From positions 1 to 64,000 of the forward strand of contig NZ_JAUNXI010000009.1 of NCBI RefSeq assembly GCF_030539875.1: a stretch of DNA of 64,000 bases, written 5' to 3'. This document shows, one piece after another, positions 7,238 through 61,528 of this stretch. The position numbers and the translations under genes were made by a program. How positions within the stretch are numbered: the first letter of the stretch is position 1; the number at the start of each line of letters is the position of its first letter. The notes beneath the pieces are model-generated. The model was given only the letters and a program-made list of their open reading frames with translations. It was not told where the DNA came from and made no database searches. The DNA is from Methanobrevibacter sp. (lineage in GTDB: Archaea > Methanobacteriota > Methanobacteria > Methanobacteriales > Methanobacteriaceae).

Positions 7238-10200
7238 ATGAATACGAAACTTAAAAAATCAATAATTGTACTGATGGTTTTTTTTGTTCTAATCATATCA
7301 ATAGGACCAATATCCGCAACTGCCGACCTTTCAACAAAGGAAATGTTGGCAAGTAATGACAATATTGGCCTTAATGATAATCTAAAAGAATCATCAACAG
7401 ACACACTTTCTTCAAATGAAAAAACATTTACAGATTTAAATACTGAAATAAATAATAATAATGAAGTCAATTTAGAAGCTGATTATGTTTATTCTTCAGG
7501 AGATAGTTTTAACAACGGAATTCAGATTAATAAAGAAGTAACAATAAACGGACATGGACATACAGTAAATCCAAATGGAAATCTATTGTTTGATATAGGA
7601 ACTGATGGATTATTAACCTTAAATGACATGACCATTGTGAACACATATTCTAGTCCAAACCCCATGATTAAAAATGGAGGAACATTAATATTAAATAATG
7701 TAACATTTACTGTTGAAAGACGCATATTATCATCATTTACAAGTGGTTCCAAATACATCACAATTGAAAATGATGGAATAATGAATGTGGAAAATTGTAC
7801 ATTTAAAGATTCATATATCCACAGTGATGCAATAACAAGTACCACAAAACAACTTTCAATATATGGATTAATTTACAATACAAACACAATAACTATAAAA
7901 AATACAATTTTTGAAAATAATAAACTTTACAACCCTTCAACCGACAAGATGGGAAAAACAATCGACATCTGTGCAATATTACATAACAAAAATAATATGT
8001 CATTAGACAATATAACCATAAAAAATACAAATGTAAGTTATGTGGCAGCATCAGGTAACCATTTTGAAGGAATTATTTTTAATGAAAAAGGCACATTAAC
8101 AATTAATAGGAGTACAATTGTAAATAATTCAATAATTTTCCCAAATACCAAGAATATCTATCTAAAAGGAATAATTTACAGTGAATCTTCTGACAGTATC
8201 CTAAATGTATCCAATACAATTATTGCTGACAATACCAATTTGCAAATGACCGATTCAAAACCAATGGTTGAATATAAAGGCACAGCTAATTTAAATAGCA
8301 ATTATTGGGGTACGAATACTCCAAATTTCAAAAATTTAATTACAGGTACTGAACCAACAAACTACATCAACATTACATTCAATCCTTCAGAAGTAACTGC
8401 AGGTGAAGAAAAAGTGTTTGATATTACTTTTAGTTTGAATGATGAGATTGTGACCGCAATACCAACATACAACATTACAATAAGGTCAGATAAAACCGGA
8501 ACCAAAATTGTTAAAATTGAAAACGGAATCGGACACTATAATTACATTTCAAATACACCAGGTAACGATACAATACATATTCAAGATAATGAATATACTA
8601 TCACAACCACAATGAGTCAATCCGGAACATTTACCGATTTAAATGAATTAATCAGTAAAAACAGTGAAATTGAATTAACAAAAGATTATACATTTGATGA
8701 AACTACAGATTCCGCATTACAAACTGGAATTCAAATCGATAAAGAAGTAACAATTAACGGTAACGGATACACTATCAACAGTACTGATCTTGCCAGATTA
8801 TTCAATATTGGAACTGCTGGAAAATTAACTTTAAAAAATATTACATTAATAACCAACAATGTAGTCACCAGCAGTGCAACAAGCAATGCGAATATTTTAA
8901 ATAAAGGTGAACTCAATTTTGATGGAGTCATATTTACAAGCCAAAGAATTTGGACCACTGGAACAGTTATTGCTTCTGCAATATTCAACTATGATGATAA
9001 TTCAAAAATGAGCATTAACAATAGTATTTTTAAGGATTCACTTGTTAACTACACTTCAACAACTGAAACTTTAAACCCTTATGGATTAATATACAATAAA
9101 GGAAGTTTATCTATAAATAATACCATATTCAGAAATAACGGAATTTATTCAACTGGAAAAGCCCTGAGTAGTCAAAATGGTGGATTAATCTATGATGCAG
9201 GTAATTCATTAGTAATAGAAAATACCCAAATCGAAAAGAACTTTGTAAAACATAACACAACTGGAAATGCAATATCTGTATTATACGGTTTAATTTATGT
9301 TCAAGGAAAAACTGTTACAATAAACAACTGTAACTTTAAAGAAAACAATATATCAACCATCTCAGAAAATGCTAATGCAAATGCATTTGGTGTTATTTGT
9401 ATGAAAGGCGGAGAGCTAAATATTGCCAATTCCAAATTTATTAAAAATAATGCAAAAACCGGATCTGCAATAAGCACATATTTAACTGCAACTACAATCA
9501 ACTCAAACAATAACATATTTGAAGAGAACACCGCAACAAATGGAGGATCAATTTATATTTATCATAATTCTATTTTAAACAGCGAAAATGATATTTATAA
9601 AAAGAATGCTGCGGAAAATGGTGGAGCTATCTATGTTAAAACATCAAACTCAAACATTGGAGAAATATCTGTTAAAAACTCTATTTTTGAAGAAAATGGT
9701 GCAAATATAGGTTCTGCGATTTACAGTTCAAACAAGACAAATGTAAATAATAACTACTGGGGAAATAATAACCCTAAATTTGAAATTTTAATTACAAATG
9801 GAATTAATAGTCAAACACCAAACAATCATGCCATACTTGTAATTGAAGGAGATTCAGAAATCATTCCAGAATATACAAAAACATATTCTGTTAGATTTAA
9901 AACAAATGATACAAATGACCTTTCTAAATTGCCAGATTACAAGGTTAACTTAACTGCAACCAATAAATTATCTGATGAAAATATTACCATCAAAGGAGCA
10001 TCTGCTTCATTCAATTATACTTCAACATTAGATGAAATTACAGACATCATCAAAGTTTCTGTTAATTCAAATGAATTAGCTACTTTTGAAGTTACTGTTA
10101 AAGAAGATGCAAATGCAAAAGGAACATTTAAAGAATTAGATAGAATTATTAGAAAATCAACAGATGAAATTAATTTAATTAAAGATTATTCATTTGATGC

Positions 10201-12628
10201 AACTATTGATTCTGGTTTAGAAAATGGAATTGTCATCGATAAACAAGTAATTATTAACGGACATGGATTTAAAATAAACAGCACTAATTTAGCTAAATTA
10301 TTCAGCGTAACAAAAACTGGTAATTTAACTTTAAAAGATGTTATTGTTTTAACTGATTATGCAACTACAGGAAATCCGGTTAAAGATAAAGCTAGCTTAA
10401 AAAATAATGGAATTGTAACTTTAGACAATGTCACATTTACAAGTAAACAAACATTAACCACAGCTACCACCTATTTATCCAGTCCAATATACAATAACGG
10501 AATTTTAAACATTGCTAACAGTAAATTTATTAATTCAACAATTGAAACCAGCGCTCAAACTTGTTATGGATTAATTGATAACGATGGAGAATTAAAAATT
10601 TCAAATACCCTTTTTGATAAAAACTCAATGATTGAATCCTCAAAATACAGTGCAATCTATGCAAATGGATTAATACACAACAAAGGCAATTTAACCTTAA
10701 ATCTAGTTAATGTTACTAACAACTATATTAAAACACCATATAATAGCTATGGACTTATAAGAGGAGATACAAACGGAGCAATAACCATCAACAATAGTAT
10801 TTTTGAAAACAATGTGTTAGATTCTAAAGACGACAATGCACAAGGTACTGTATTATACTTAGAATCAGGAACTGCAAAAATTTCAAACTCCAAATTTATT
10901 AAAAATATTGGAGCTAGAAGCGGTGGTGCCATATACACTATAATCCCTACTACATTCATTAACAACACATTCGAAAAAAATACTGCTACAGATTCAGGTG
11001 GAGCAATATACACCGGCAATGCAAAAACATTATTTGCAAACAATACATTTAAGGATAATGAAGCAAATACCGGCGGAGCAATATATTCCAGTGAATTAAC
11101 CTCAGCAAATGGAAACCAGTTTATCAGCAACCGTGCAACTAAACATGGAGGAGCAATTTACTCCAATACTATTGGAACAATGGAAAAACCAATTGAAAAT
11201 AACATATTCATAAACAATGAAGCACTTGAAAATGGTGGGGCAATCTACTCTAAAAATGGAGTAAGAGTAAATAAAAGCACAATACAAGGAAATAAAGCTG
11301 GAAACGGTGCTGCAATTTATTCTGCTGCAACTGGAGGAAGCGAATCAGTGAAAACTTCTTCCATCAAAAATACAATTTTTGACAGCAATGTCATTAAATC
11401 ATCCTCTGGAAAATTAGTGTATTTCTATGGAAAATCCATTGCAGAAAACAACTATTGGGGAAACAATAATATTAACTTCACCGAATTAATTGGAGTTAAC
11501 GGAGGAACATTCACTGCACCAGAAAACATTACAATAATAATCATTGAAGGAAATACCACATTATCTTCTTCAGATACATACACTGTTAAATTTGTAAACA
11601 ACAATACAGGAATAACTGTTGCATTGAATGATTATGAAGCGGAAGTTTCATCCAATTTAAATCCAGTTACTCCTACAATAATCAGCATTAAAAATGGTGT
11701 TGGAAGTTTCCGGTATAATGCTGAAAACAATGGTCAGGACACCATAAAAATTAGTAAAAATAATGTTGAAATAACCAATGCCACAGTAACTGTAATCCTT
11801 CCTAAAAAACCAGTTAATATTGATGATGCTTTAGTGATTGTCAATGACAAAAACTTAACATTCACATTCACCTTCAAATTACCTGAAAATGCAATGGGAA
11901 CATTTACCGTTAAAATTGGTGAAACAACAAAAACTGCATCATTAGTAAATGGATCTGCAACCATCAAGTTATCTGGATTGCCTGCAGGATTACAAACTGC
12001 AAATATCACATATAGCGGTGATGAAAATTACGAATCCACAGCTAAACAGACCAATATTACAGTAGCAAAACAAGAAGTTAAATCAAGCACCATAACAACT
12101 GTAACTGCACCAAAATATGGCAAAACTGCATCTTATGCCATTAAATTACCAGCTACAGCAACAGGAACTTTAACAGTGACTGTTGACGGTAAAAAATATA
12201 CTAAAACTATTGTAAATGGTGAAGCTACAGTAACAATACCGAAATTAGCAGTGGGAAAACATACCATAAAAATCGCATATTCAGGCGATAATAACTACAA
12301 AGGTGTTAGCAAAACTTCAACAGCAACTATTGTTAAACCGAAAGTAACTCCTACAATATATGCTAAAAATAAAGTCTTCAAAGTTAAAACTAAAGTTAAA
12401 AAATATTCTATAACTTTAAAGCATGGTAAAAAAGCACTTAAAAAAGTAAAAGTGTATTTAAAAGTTAAAGGTAAAACTTACACTGCTAAAACTAATAGTA
12501 AAGGAGAAGCAACCTTTAAAATTACCAAATTAACCAAAAAAGGAATTTACAAAAGTAGCATCACATACAAAGGAAGTGCAACATACAAAAAAGTTACAAA
12601 ATATGTAAAAATTACTGCCAAAAGATAG
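7238..12628 (+). CDS. Large secreted adhesin-like protein with three beta-helix modules and Ig-like tail
   Basis: A 1796-residue exported protein. The signal peptide (MNTKLKKSIIVLMVFFVLII, cleaved near ISATA, about residue 28) follows an SD at 7227-7230. Three homologous modules begin near residues 62, 461 and 961 with TFTDLN/TFKELD, then INKEVTINGHG-type and LTLKNIT-type motifs. Each has parallel beta-helix rungs with GGAIY and NNTF phrases, and an NNYWG motif followed by an Ig-like domain. After about residue 1520 come two Big_3-like Ig domains (ITYSGDENY, IAYSGDNNY) and a very Lys-rich final domain of about 95 residues. There is no C-terminal membrane helix, LPxTG motif or recognised pseudomurein-binding repeat, so attachment may be ionic. 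This type is common in Methanobrevibacter; the binding partner is unknown. Confidence 0.88.
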   Translation: MNTKLKKSIIVLMVFFVLIISIGPISATADLSTKEMLASNDNIGLNDNLKESSTDTLSSNEKTFTDLNTEINNNNEVNLEADYVYSSGDSFNNGIQINKEVTINGHGHTVNPNGNLLFDIGTDGLLTLNDMTIVNTYSSPNPMIKNGGTLILNNVTFTVERRILSSFTSGSKYITIENDGIMNVENCTFKDSYIHSDAITSTTKQLSIYGLIYNTNTITIKNTIFENNKLYNPSTDKMGKTIDICAILHNKNNMSLDNITIKNTNVSYVAASGNHFEGIIFNEKGTLTINRSTIVNNSIIFPNTKNIYLKGIIYSESSDSILNVSNTIIADNTNLQMTDSKPMVEYKGTANLNSNYWGTNTPNFKNLITGTEPTNYINITFNPSEVTAGEEKVFDITFSLNDEIVTAIPTYNITIRSDKTGTKIVKIENGIGHYNYISNTPGNDTIHIQDNEYTITTTMSQSGTFTDLNELISKNSEIELTKDYTFDETTDSALQTGIQIDKEVTINGNGYTINSTDLARLFNIGTAGKLTLKNITLITNNVVTSSATSNANILNKGELNFDGVIFTSQRIWTTGTVIASAIFNYDDNSKMSINNSIFKDSLVNYTSTTETLNPYGLIYNKGSLSINNTIFRNNGIYSTGKALSSQNGGLIYDAGNSLVIENTQIEKNFVKHNTTGNAISVLYGLIYVQGKTVTINNCNFKENNISTISENANANAFGVICMKGGELNIANSKFIKNNAKTGSAISTYLTATTINSNNNIFEENTATNGGSIYIYHNSILNSENDIYKKNAAENGGAIYVKTSNSNIGEISVKNSIFEENGANIGSAIYSSNKTNVNNNYWGNNNPKFEILITNGINSQTPNNHAILVIEGDSEIIPEYTKTYSVRFKTNDTNDLSKLPDYKVNLTATNKLSDENITIKGASASFNYTSTLDEITDIIKVSVNSNELATFEVTVKEDANAKGTFKELDRIIRKSTDEINLIKDYSFDATIDSGLENGIVIDKQVIINGHGFKINSTNLAKLFSVTKTGNLTLKDVIVLTDYATTGNPVKDKASLKNNGIVTLDNVTFTSKQTLTTATTYLSSPIYNNGILNIANSKFINSTIETSAQTCYGLIDNDGELKISNTLFDKNSMIESSKYSAIYANGLIHNKGNLTLNLVNVTNNYIKTPYNSYGLIRGDTNGAITINNSIFENNVLDSKDDNAQGTVLYLESGTAKISNSKFIKNIGARSGGAIYTIIPTTFINNTFEKNTATDSGGAIYTGNAKTLFANNTFKDNEANTGGAIYSSELTSANGNQFISNRATKHGGAIYSNTIGTMEKPIENNIFINNEALENGGAIYSKNGVRVNKSTIQGNKAGNGAAIYSAATGGSESVKTSSIKNTIFDSNVIKSSSGKLVYFYGKSIAENNYWGNNNINFTELIGVNGGTFTAPENITIIIIEGNTTLSSSDTYTVKFVNNNTGITVALNDYEAEVSSNLNPVTPTIISIKNGVGSFRYNAENNGQDTIKISKNNVEITNATVTVILPKKPVNIDDALVIVNDKNLTFTFTFKLPENAMGTFTVKIGETTKTASLVNGSATIKLSGLPAGLQTANITYSGDENYESTAKQTNITVAKQEVKSSTITTVTAPKYGKTASYAIKLPATATGTLTVTVDGKKYTKTIVNGEATVTIPKLAVGKHTIKIAYSGDNNYKGVSKTSTATIVKPKVTPTIYAKNKVFKVKTKVKKYSITLKHGKKALKKVKVYLKVKGKTYTAKTNSKGEATFKITKLTKKGIYKSSITYKGSATYKKVTKYVKITAKR

Positions 12629-12662
12629 AGACAAACCATCTCTATCACTTTTTTCATTTTTT
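12624..12662 (+). terminator. Hairpin and T-tract terminator after the first adhesin gene
   Basis: Stem GATAGAGA (12624-12631) pairs with TCTCTATC (12639-12646) around a seven-base loop, followed by acttttttcattttttt. The stem begins within the stop codon region. This is a bacterial-type intrinsic terminator shape. Confidence 0.75.
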
Positions 12663-12778
12663 TATTACTTATTTGAAATACATTAAAAGAACTATCAACC
12701 GTTTAATTATACTAAAACAATGTAAATAACATTATTTTTAGAAAATAAGCAATTATCCTAAGTAATACAAAGATAATC

Positions 12779-12787
12779 TTTATATAA
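12779..12787 (+). promoter_or_regulatory. TATA box of the second adhesin gene
   Basis: The sequence tttatataa is a good archaeal TATA box. Transcription would begin about 25 bases further on, near 12810, leaving a leader of roughly 50 bases that includes the strong ribosome site at 12848-12855. The rest of the 12629-12848 spacer shows nothing else. Confidence 0.5.
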
Positions 12788-12849
12788 TAACTATTTCAAA
12801 TGCAATAATGTATTAATAGTTTTTATAAAATTAATACAAACACGCAAAA

Positions 12850-12866
12850 GGAGGATTGAAAAAATA
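12850..12866 (+). promoter_or_regulatory. Perfect Shine-Dalgarno sequence spaced for an AUA codon
   Basis: GGAGGA (12850-12855) is followed, after eight bases, by ATA (12864-12866), in frame with the second adhesin gene. In the third adhesin gene the same GGAGGA is followed after eight bases by ATG (59270). The first ATG of the second adhesin gene (12891) is 35 bases away, too far for this site. The ATA therefore sits where a start codon is expected. Confidence 0.65.
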
Positions 12867-12890
12867 AACAAAACCCTTAAAATATCCATT

Positions 12891-14651
12891 ATGATATTTA
12901 CTATGATTTTTTTAGTAATGGTTTGTACTTCAACTACCACAGCGGCAAGTGACTTAAACTCAATGAGTGAAACACTGACTGCAAACCACAATGATGTTTT
13001 ATCTGACATAAATGAAGCAGATGAATCGGATATTGAATATACTGAAATTCATGTAAAGAATAATGTTGAAACTTCTGGAAATGGAAGTGAAAGCAGTCCA
13101 TTTAAAACAATAAATGAAGCAATCAATTACGGGAACAACAATACAAAACCAGTAATTGTCCATATTCATTCAGGAACATATGATGATATAAATATGACCA
13201 TCACAAACAATATGATTATAAAATCATACGATGGTGGCGTAACATTAAATGCAAACAATAATGGATGGTTCTTTTATTCTACAAATTCCAGTAATAACTT
13301 ATCATTAATTGGTTTAACATTCATAAATGGAATTAGATATGATTACTATGATTCTAGTGAAGGTGGAGTTGTAAAAACTGCAGGCCACATTGACGTTATC
13401 AATTGTACTTTTGAACATAATTTCGGAGGTACAGGCGGAGGAATAAATTCAAACAATGGTGCCAACATCATTAATTCAACATTCAACCACAATAAAGCAG
13501 AATACAATGGTGCCGGAATCTACAGTATTTATGGTCAGACCAATATCATCAACTGTAACTTCAACAACAATACTGCAAAAAGACAAGGTGGTGCTGTAAG
13601 AGTTCAAGGAAGCACATATATTGAAAACTCCACATTTAACAATAATTTAGCAGGCCATGGTCCTTCAATGGGTATTGCAAATTATGCTGGAAATGGAGGT
13701 GCTGTAAGAGTAACCGAAGGTGATTTAAACATTGAATCATCAATATTCAATAATAACACCGCAAAATTTGAGGGTGGAGCGGTTTCCGCTGGAGATGACA
13801 GTCAATACTCACAAACACACTATCAATTAAACATCCGCAATTCAACATTTACCAATAATAAAGCACGTAATGGTGCGGGAATTGTTGCAAATGATGGAAT
13901 AAATATCACAAACAGTACTATCGCAAACAATACTGTACCATACACAGTAAGTGCAAAATATGGTTCAGGAACTGCAGTTTACATACTAAATGGAGATAGT
14001 TCATTTGTTGGAAATGTCATCAAAAACAATACAAATCCGTATGCTATTTTATATAAAGAAGGAATTTATTCATATAGCGGAAATGTAGCTGAAAAAGACA
14101 ATATTTGGGGAAATGAAACTACATCCCATATTAAAACAAACAATGGGAAAACAACCCAAAATGTGGCTACAATTCCCAAAATAAACAAACCTCAAATTAC
14201 AATAAAAACAGGTGCAAATATTAAAAAGATTAATAATAACCCAATTAATCCGCCTAAAGATGATGCACCAACCAAAACTACTGAAAACTCCACAAAACAA
14301 GAAAATACAAAAAATCAAAATATAATTGATAAAATTATAACAGAAATTACAGATGGTCTCAAATCAATTACCAATCAAGAATCATCTAATGAAAACATAA
14401 ATTCAGAAAATGGAATCATAGTTAACGGAACAACCAATCCTGCAAGCAGCAATGTAGGTGAAAATTCAAATGAACCAGTTTCACAAGACAATAGTGGAAA
14501 TGGCGAAAATGGAGATTCGGCAATTGCTCATGAAATATCTAAAATAACCAAAGCTATTACTAAAGACTATTTAATGCACTCCATTGCATTAATAATAATC
14601 GTAGCATTAGCATTTATAATTGGATATAAAAGAAAACAAAAAGAAAAATAA
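12891..14651 (+). CDS. Adhesin-like beta-helix surface protein with C-terminal membrane anchor; start uncertain
   Basis: 586 residues from the first ATG, giving a hydrophobic leader (MIFTMIFLVMVC) with no preceding basic residues. Reading upstream in frame from the ATA at 12864 adds x-NKTLKISI, which restores a normal signal peptide. The true start is therefore probably 12864, or the gene has lost its start codon. The mature part begins with a pectate-lyase-like pattern (SPFKTINEAINYG), then right-handed beta-helix rungs with repeated NNTAK and GGAV phrases to about residue 400. Next is a low-complexity Asn/Thr/Glu-rich stalk, and finally a membrane helix with a basic tail (about 560-586, YKRKQKEK). 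No LPxTG motif precedes the helix. Probable role: cell-surface adhesion; ligand unknown. Confidence 0.8.
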   Translation: MIFTMIFLVMVCTSTTTAASDLNSMSETLTANHNDVLSDINEADESDIEYTEIHVKNNVETSGNGSESSPFKTINEAINYGNNNTKPVIVHIHSGTYDDINMTITNNMIIKSYDGGVTLNANNNGWFFYSTNSSNNLSLIGLTFINGIRYDYYDSSEGGVVKTAGHIDVINCTFEHNFGGTGGGINSNNGANIINSTFNHNKAEYNGAGIYSIYGQTNIINCNFNNNTAKRQGGAVRVQGSTYIENSTFNNNLAGHGPSMGIANYAGNGGAVRVTEGDLNIESSIFNNNTAKFEGGAVSAGDDSQYSQTHYQLNIRNSTFTNNKARNGAGIVANDGINITNSTIANNTVPYTVSAKYGSGTAVYILNGDSSFVGNVIKNNTNPYAILYKEGIYSYSGNVAEKDNIWGNETTSHIKTNNGKTTQNVATIPKINKPQITIKTGANIKKINNNPINPPKDDAPTKTTENSTKQENTKNQNIIDKIITEITDGLKSITNQESSNENINSENGIIVNGTTNPASSNVGENSNEPVSQDNSGNGENGDSAIAHEISKITKAITKDYLMHSIALIIIVALAFIIGYKRKQKEK

Positions 14652-59088: not shown

Positions 59089-59269
59089 TTAACAAAACGA
59101 TTATGAACTATTTACATTTCGTTGGATTTCAATTAAAGTAAATTGGAGTTTACATTTATTAAAATAAAAATGATTATATAGTAAGCAATACATAAGATTA
59201 TAATACTAAAAATTATAATAACTTTTTATTGAGAAATATGATTTTTAAAAAAAAAGGAGGAAATAAGTA

Positions 59270-61528
59270 ATGAAACTTAAAAACTCTTACATCTTACTAA
59301 TAACAATAGCAGTATTCTTATTAGTAAGCATAGGATCTGTTTCTGCAAACGACATAGACACCAATGAAGATGTCAGTTTATCAGATGATGGATCAGACAT
59401 TGTTCTTGCAAATGAATCAGCAAACACAACAGTTAAAAAAAGTACCGAAGTTGTTTCTGAAGACGTTGCAATAAGAGATAATGAAACAAAGGTAATTGAT
59501 GTTACTGTAAAAGATAATGAAAGTAATTCTATCGGAATTACTGATAAAAATTTAACAGTCTATGAAGGAAACAAACAAATAAAATTCAGTTATAACAATT
59601 CAAAAATTATTATCCTTGATAAATTAAGCAAGGGCAATCATAAATTAAATATAACCTATTTAGGCAATGACATTTATAATAACTCTTCAAAAATTATTAA
59701 TTTATGTATTTTTGGAAACTATTCAATTGAAACAGACAGTTCCATTGATGTCAACAGTTCAAAAATTGTTGAAATTCCAATTAATGTTACAAATGGGAAG
59801 GACAGTGAAATTCTAAGTAAAAATGAGTTTAATATAAGCATAACCTATAAAGACGGAAATGAGACTAAAACAGTCAATATTTCTGACTTTAAAGTAGAAA
59901 ACAATAAAATCATATTTAATTATCCATTGGCAAATAACATTACCACATCAAATATTGCCATCGTCTACACTAACGGCAATAAAACACTTAACACCACTAT
60001 CAAATCAAATAGAATATACAATGTTAAGATTGATGTAATCAATGGTAAAAATCAATACCAAAATGGAAATTTCACATTTAAAGTAACTGATATTGATAAT
60101 GAAACCACCAATTTAACAGGTAAAAAAATAAGGTTAACTATTATCAGAAGTAACCTCAGAACATCATTCGATGGAGTAATAGATAAAAATGGCATTATAA
60201 CATTTAAAACAACTTCTTTAATTGTTTATACTCTAGATAATGGTAAATTAAGTCAAGATTACCTAAATGTTGGCAACAATACTGTTGAATTAAGTAAGGA
60301 TGAAAAAAGTGATTTGAGATTCAGCACCTTTAAAACTAATTTGACTATCGAACAAGCAACAATCAATATTGAAATTGAAAATATGAAAGAAGAATATGGA
60401 ACTGCTAAAAAATTCAACATTGAAGTTACAAATGCTGTTGACGGCAGTCCAGTACCTGGTATTCTTCTTCACTTATATATGCCTGAAACCAAAGATAAGC
60501 ATTATTACATTCTAACTAATGTAAACGGAACTGGAGTAATCAATATCAATACTTTAACCAGTGGAATTTATAATATTAATGTTAGTAATAATGATACCAA
60601 AAACATGAAATATAAACAGGTCAGCGGAAAAATAACTATTGTTGCAAAACCTGTAACTATAGCGATAACATCCGGTTCAACTATAAGCTACAATACCGGA
60701 ACTACAGCAATTATTAAAATTACAGACAAAAAAACCGGTAAAGCAGTGCCTAATGCAATCGTATATGTTCAAATATACACAGGTTCAAAATCAAAGGCGT
60801 ATCTTTTCCAGGCAGATAAAAACGGATTTGTTAAATTTTCAGCATCCTTAGCTGTTGGAAAACACAAGATAGTTGTAAAATCTGCAGATACAAGATATAG
60901 CAGCAATACAGTTACCAAATATATTACAGTTAAAAAGGCATCTGCAAAGATTGTTGCACCAAAAGTGACTGCATACTACAAACAAGGCAAATACTTTACT
61001 ATAAAATTAGTCAACACACAAAAGAAAAATGCACCTATTTATGATGGAAAACTTAACATTAGAATATACATATCCCCTTACAAATACTACAATTACAATG
61101 GAAATACCGGAGGTAATGGTCAGTTAAAATTATTAATTGATTTAAACCCTGGAACTTACAAGGTTGAAGTCAGAGGCGCTGATGCAAAAGACTTTAGTGT
61201 TAAAAAAGTTTCATCAAAAATCGTAGTGCTTAAAGCTCCAACTAAATTAACTCCTGCAAAAATAACTGCTAAAAAAGGAACAAACAAAAACTTTAAAGTT
61301 ACTGTGAAAAATACAAAAACAAATAAAGTGATTCCTGGAGTTAAAGTAAAAGTTAAAGTTTACACAGGCAAATCCTACAAAACTTATACAATAAAAACTA
61401 ATTCAAAAGGAATTGCATATCTTAATGTGAAATCTTTAAGTGTTGGAAACCATAAAGTAGTAGTTAGTTCTGCAAACAAATATTGTGTTGGAAAAACCGC
61501 AACATCATACATAAAAATAACTAAATAA
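59270..61528 (+). CDS. Secreted adhesin-like protein with Lys-rich Ig-like repeats
   Basis: 752 residues. Signal peptide MKLKNSYILLITIAVFLLVS with a cleavage site near SVSAND, preceded by GGAGGA eight bases before the ATG. Residues about 30-360 hold Asn/Ser/Lys-rich domains of Ig-like type. From about 460 on, four Ig-like repeats each carry G-x-A-x-x-x-V-x-L-x-V-G-x-H-K-V-V-V phrases (for example SLSVGNHKVVVSSANKY, LAVGKHKIVVKSADTRY, LNPGTYKVEVRGADAK). There is no C-terminal membrane helix, LPxTG motif or pseudomurein-binding repeat. The very basic last part resembles the tail of the first adhesin and may bind the cell wall by charge. The upstream 200 bases hold a TATA (about 59173) and no other feature. 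Confidence 0.84.
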   Translation: MKLKNSYILLITIAVFLLVSIGSVSANDIDTNEDVSLSDDGSDIVLANESANTTVKKSTEVVSEDVAIRDNETKVIDVTVKDNESNSIGITDKNLTVYEGNKQIKFSYNNSKIIILDKLSKGNHKLNITYLGNDIYNNSSKIINLCIFGNYSIETDSSIDVNSSKIVEIPINVTNGKDSEILSKNEFNISITYKDGNETKTVNISDFKVENNKIIFNYPLANNITTSNIAIVYTNGNKTLNTTIKSNRIYNVKIDVINGKNQYQNGNFTFKVTDIDNETTNLTGKKIRLTIIRSNLRTSFDGVIDKNGIITFKTTSLIVYTLDNGKLSQDYLNVGNNTVELSKDEKSDLRFSTFKTNLTIEQATINIEIENMKEEYGTAKKFNIEVTNAVDGSPVPGILLHLYMPETKDKHYYILTNVNGTGVININTLTSGIYNINVSNNDTKNMKYKQVSGKITIVAKPVTIAITSGSTISYNTGTTAIIKITDKKTGKAVPNAIVYVQIYTGSKSKAYLFQADKNGFVKFSASLAVGKHKIVVKSADTRYSSNTVTKYITVKKASAKIVAPKVTAYYKQGKYFTIKLVNTQKKNAPIYDGKLNIRIYISPYKYYNYNGNTGGNGQLKLLIDLNPGTYKVEVRGADAKDFSVKKVSSKIVVLKAPTKLTPAKITAKKGTNKNFKVTVKNTKTNKVIPGVKVKVKVYTGKSYKTYTIKTNSKGIAYLNVKSLSVGNHKVVVSSANKYCVGKTATSYIKITK

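Follow-up and report, generated by a model that had tools for sequence, protein, structure and literature searches.

An adhesin-like gene of a Methanobrevibacter sp. with a probable AUA start, and apparent conservation of AUU, AUA and AUC starts in its genus and family

The locus described here raises the question of which codon begins an adhesin-like gene of a Methanobrevibacter sp. that carries ATA where its ribosome-binding site would place the start. The window, the whole stretch of DNA that was analysed, comprises 64,000 nucleotides (positions 1 to 64,000 of contig NZ_JAUNXI010000009.1, assembly GCF_030539875.1). The Shine-Dalgarno (SD) sequence GGAGGA (12850-12855, + strand) is followed by ttgaaaaa and then by ATA (12864-12866, +), from which the product would begin with INKTLKISIMIFTMIFLVMVCTSTTTAA. 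The open frame begins at 12777 and holds no in-frame ATG, GTG or TTG upstream of the ATA. The earliest such codon is the ATG at 12891-12893 (+), an unlikely start, as it is separated from the SD by 35 bases and falls within the hydrophobic core of the signal peptide. The initial annotation had proposed either a rare AUA start or a G-to-A change that removed the start codon, and had suggested that a silent state able to revert could serve as a switch. By analogy with near-cognate starts of Staphylococcus aureus, low-level production from the AUA is the most likely state of the adhesin.

The GGAGGA-8-ATA layout at 12850-12866 is present in the sequence as annotated, and its likeness to the third adhesin gene of the window (59270-61528, +) is exact, with GGAGGA, 8 bases and ATG at 59256-59272. 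Counted from GGAGG, the spacer at the ATA is 9; in a sample of 360 ORFs from the genome, the distance from GGAGG to AUG has its mode at 7, with 18 of 268 at 9, and the spacing at 12864 is within the range of AUG genes. At 33% GC, chance alone will quite often put an ATA in frame at an allowed spacing, and this one rises above chance because the ATG of an ortholog aligns gaplessly with residue 1. The ortholog, from RUG593 (G036), is the single full-length one among 67 genomes of the genus and 151 genomes of the order (one genome per species) and is 52% identical. A search of genome contigs for close strains gave RUG593 as the only full-length match, and one of viral contigs gave none. Its N-terminus MDTKPKKLIVILAIVFLALISINMISA begins at an ATG after GGAG, and a MAFFT alignment of the DNA sets this ATG opposite the ATA at 12864. 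Since the ortholog aligns without gaps from residue 1, the start position is placed at 12864 and the ATG at 12891 is read as an internal methionine; initiation at 12864 is what we infer from the SD spacing, the aligned ATG and the AUA and AUU starts of other families in the genus. The ortholog also carries the full n-region, in agreement with the earlier assignment of the upstream lysines to the signal peptide. It speaks against an AUA start that the codon is not kept in the sole ortholog and that the spacer of 9 exceeds the mode of 7.

Other explanations of the leader were tried and rejected. The TTG at 12856 is out of frame (TTG AAA AAA TAA) and sits directly on the SD. Masking of the SD, or a fold that brings the ATG at 12891 near to it, was set aside in view of the weak RNA fold (z -1.4). 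A loss of 5 bases around the start in comparison with RUG593 (AAAAAATAA[TGGAT]ACAAAACCC) fits locally and is less probable, as it needs a second, compensating indel; the gapless protein alignment is simpler.

Read from 12864, the gene (12864-14651, +) encodes an adhesin-like protein of 595 residues, an assignment based on the translation, a POMP repeat and a structure model. The signal peptide INKTLKISIMIFTMIFLVMVCTSTTTAA (12864-12947, +), delimited by translation and by comparison with the ortholog, has two lysines ahead of its hydrophobic core on inspection, and inspection and model both place a hydrophobic membrane helix with a basic tail at the C-terminus; the secretion signal and membrane anchor of adhesin-like proteins thus both appear to be present in this reading. 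The body is modelled as a right-handed beta-helix (about residues 60-430), with mostly beta-strand coils between helices at 3-40 and 553-594, a mean pLDDT of 63, and an alignment of only two sequences behind the model. The POMP-type repeat is matched by TIGR01376 (22.1 bits; NCBIfam cut-off 15), and Chlam_PMP reaches 20.5, just below its cut-off of 20.6. Adhesin-like proteins of Methanobrevibacter have been described with a beta-helix body and an N- and/or C-terminal membrane anchor (PMC11532034), and the predicted protein of the window shares this body and anchor. The same study (PMC11532034) is silent on start codons and signal peptides; AUH starts (AUA, AUU or AUC) would shorten annotated N-termini. 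Upstream of the gene lie a putative archaeal promoter, the TATA-like element TTTATATAAT (12779-12788, +), and an inverted repeat with 8 bp of perfect match, GTATTAAT-12 nt-ATTAATAC (12810-12837, +), which folds as a 9-bp stem and is a possible 5'-UTR hairpin or operator. This repeat is kept in the ortholog (L045 2929-2951), with a spacer of 7 nt versus 12, and other copies of it were not found in the searched stretches of the present genome, G001 and G089. The preceding gene (7238-12628, +) is also adhesin-like and has a normal ATG; an adhesin-like gene lies directly upstream of the RUG593 ortholog too.

AUH starts were surveyed in 1.25 Mb of the 1.82 Mb draft genome, in ORFs that have an SD and no ATG, GTG or TTG at the SD. 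An in-frame ATT, ATA or ATC stands at an SD spacing of 6-9 in 18 of 50 cases versus 9 of 111 control positions (Fisher p=4e-5), the control being codons further into the ORF and imperfect, as N-terminal codons are not random; the homologs are given more weight for that reason. The corresponding counts are 6/11 versus 3/33 in G001 and 6/13 versus 1/33 in G089. All six cases of G001 are orthologous to cases or candidates of the present genome. An AUH start with no usable canonical codon was called in 7 of 33 secreted-type ORFs versus about 6 of 1,045 others (p about 2e-8), a soft figure because the secreted set follows from a simple rule on hydrophobicity and the starts were called by eye. Taken together with the homologs described below, the comparison shows AUU, AUA and AUC starts to be apparently conserved in Methanobrevibacter and in its family, with enrichment in adhesins. 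A GTG inside the SD (AGGAGGTGA) was rejected as the start of other AUH genes: it has no upstream SD and is out of frame in orthologs L181 and L182, and a TAA cuts it off in five tiaS homologs. A special AUA-reading tRNA was likewise rejected, as the tRNAs in about 1.2 Mb of the genome include only CAU (Met) and GAU (Ile) at this box and no UAU. The exact anti-SD pattern, the 16S 3' end GGATCACCTCCT, was not found in the assembly (G000), where the 16S rRNA is probably missing, split or collapsed. The genome also holds a 1,599-residue CobN/Mg-chelatase-like protein (L061:5874-10682, -) that carries a signal peptide and apparently starts at AUC, and further AUH candidates were noted in G089 (L281-L300), among them an ABC-transporter ATPase-like ORF (L297:18879-19736, -) and L290:18055-19446.

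Several genes that do not encode surface proteins appear to have such starts. The tiaS gene (L055:18501; G000:C1:58501; homologs L123-L152 and L261-L280) is assigned to TiaS by Pfam, its best NCBIfam match of 456 bits being below the cut-off of 600. Five codons ahead of its GIDDTDS motif, 30 of 30 homologs covered in the genus have ATT. The preceding codon is variable and in five species is TAA, so that no upstream start is possible there; in the present genome the next canonical codon comes only after the motif. Elsewhere in the order this position holds ATA in seven genera (g3, g5, g6, g7, g10, g11, g13), ATT in g8 and ATG in g9, g15, g16, g17, g18 and g19, while the sequence of g12 suggests an upstream TTG start. 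The AUG start of tiaS belongs to the more distant genera of the order. In gatB (L060:1377; G000:C2:1377) the codon is ATT in 29 of 30 genus homologs, with a spacer of 7, and the stretch of five codons up to the first ATG shows only synonymous changes in the 29, save one S-to-N. A MetX-like hydrolase has ATT in 12 of 13 homologs, and the homologs of the small zinc-ribbon-like protein 17110 have ATT, once ATC and once ATG. TiaS makes agmatidine, the tRNA modification that allows decoding of AUA. An AUU or AUA start of tiaS could couple its own synthesis to the stringency of start selection or of AUA decoding, a possible autoregulation.

The adhesin families vary more within the AUH class. In the L059+ family, whose member in the present genome starts with ATA, the 25 readable orthologs from 25 species comprise 12 with ATA and 13 with ATT, and ATG was found at the start position in none of them. 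A TAA stands directly before the start codon in L237 and L250 (ATA) and in L241 and L244 (ATT). The family tree, built from proteins without their N-termini, needs at least 5 changes between ATA and ATT. In L251 an ATG two codons downstream could serve, and the start of L233 is less clear. The L059- family has ATT, ATC, ATA and one ATG across species, with two members not clearly readable, and another surface protein has ATT both in the present genome and in G001. A start codon that moves among ATA, ATT and ATC but does not become fixed as ATG suggests that these adhesins retain weak initiation as such. The AUC- and AUA-start adhesins of G001 form a head-to-head divergent pair (L230:9717-11330, -, and 11707-14640, +); the same pair is about 2.4 kb apart in the present genome.

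The gene at 12864 differs from these families in that its near-cognate codon is not conserved, the sole ortholog having ATG. This AUG may be ancestral or may have been gained in RUG593, a choice that one ortholog cannot decide; the AUA at 12864 is probably derived from an AUG in the lineage of the present genome, which would make the AUG the ancestral state. The earlier idea of a G-to-A change is to that extent in line with the ortholog, and its corollary of silencing found no support, the ORF being intact. A recent change from ATG to ATA that in practice silenced the gene, making it an incipient pseudogene that could possibly revert, would agree with the AUG of the ortholog and the lineage-specific AUA, and is nevertheless unlikely: 595 codons are open, signal peptide and anchor are intact, and further adhesins, both of this genome and of the genus, have long kept AUA and AUU starts. 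The likeness to phase-variable surface proteins, as drawn in the initial annotation, is that of a surface protein with possible on and off states. Unlike them, the gene shows in its leader sequence neither a repeat tract nor an invertible element nor a hypermutable site that could flip the third base of the start codon; the A6 run beside the ATA could alter the SD spacing and not the codon or the frame. With near-cognate starts evidently working in the clade, the revertible switch was not borne out. Of the two states between which the annotation had left the choice, a genuine AUA start has become clearly preferable, given the AUA, AUU and AUC starts conserved in at least six families of the genus.

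Two further readings appear very improbable. Translation from the ATG at 12891, with a short leader lacking basic residues, would use the first canonical codon, the one that a gene finder limited to ATG, GTG and TTG would call; against it stand the distance of 35 bases from the SD, the position within the hydrophobic core and the full n-region of the ortholog. Slightly less credit still is given to an error of sequencing or assembly at 12864, or a minority allele, in place of a true ATG. The assembly is a draft of 40 contigs and the ortholog has ATG, but a single-base error exactly at a start codon is improbable a priori, and comparison with other species confirms the genome's other AUH starts.

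We therefore hold it likely, with good though not full confidence, that the adhesin is translated from a weak AUA at 12864, set by GGAGGA, under a clade-wide use of AUH starts. The GGAGGA site would set initiation at the AUA, with which the initiator tRNA (anticodon CAU) would pair imperfectly, so that initiation would be slower than at AUG and the adhesin held at a presumably low level, the whole signal peptide still being made. Since the ortholog has AUG, the gene may have joined the AUH class only recently, or may be a recently weakened or decaying copy. In the Methanobrevibacter group such starts would stand behind strong SD sequences in tiaS, gatB, the MetX-like hydrolase and several adhesin families. 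That they form a maintained class of weak starts tuning adhesins and TiaS-like enzymes, with self-coupling of tiaS a possibility, is judged somewhat probable.

In Escherichia coli the AUU starts of infC and pcnB hold expression low, and infC is autoregulated. The starts described here resemble these in being AUH codons, used there to keep expression low. Discrimination of starts by IF3 is bacterial, and archaea use aIF1, aIF1A and aIF2. The aIF1 of Sulfolobus is stated to promote the rejection of non-canonical start codons (PMC6237735). Near-cognate starts are reported in Staphylococcus aureus for infC (AUA), ccpN (AUA), cvfC1 (AUU) and citZ (AUA), with the AUA start of ccpN conserved in B. 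subtilis, and AUA or AUU behind a strong SD gives roughly 10-30% of the AUG yield (PMC13009471). The present cases are like these in that AUA or AUU follows a strong SD at a suitable distance and is kept across species. The S. aureus cases are bacterial and mostly single regulators, whereas here an archaeal clade and many genes would be concerned, with core tRNA-modification enzymes included and a strong bias to secreted adhesins. An earlier report of clade-wide AUH starts was not found in the open-licence literature.

The strongest new result is that near-cognate starts are apparently in use across the clade, with enrichment in adhesins. If true, the rules for annotating start codons are incomplete for a main group of methanogens of animals and people, and gene finders limited to AUG, GUG and UUG would misread AUH-start genes. 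The tiaS gene would then be annotated without its catalytic N-terminus, and about a fifth of the secreted adhesin-like proteins of the genome without part of their signal peptide. The clade would offer an archaeal system, kept in dozens of species, in which to ask what allows aIF1 and the initiator tRNA to accept a mismatch at the third position, and it would raise the question of whether weak starts are selected to limit the dose of surface proteins.
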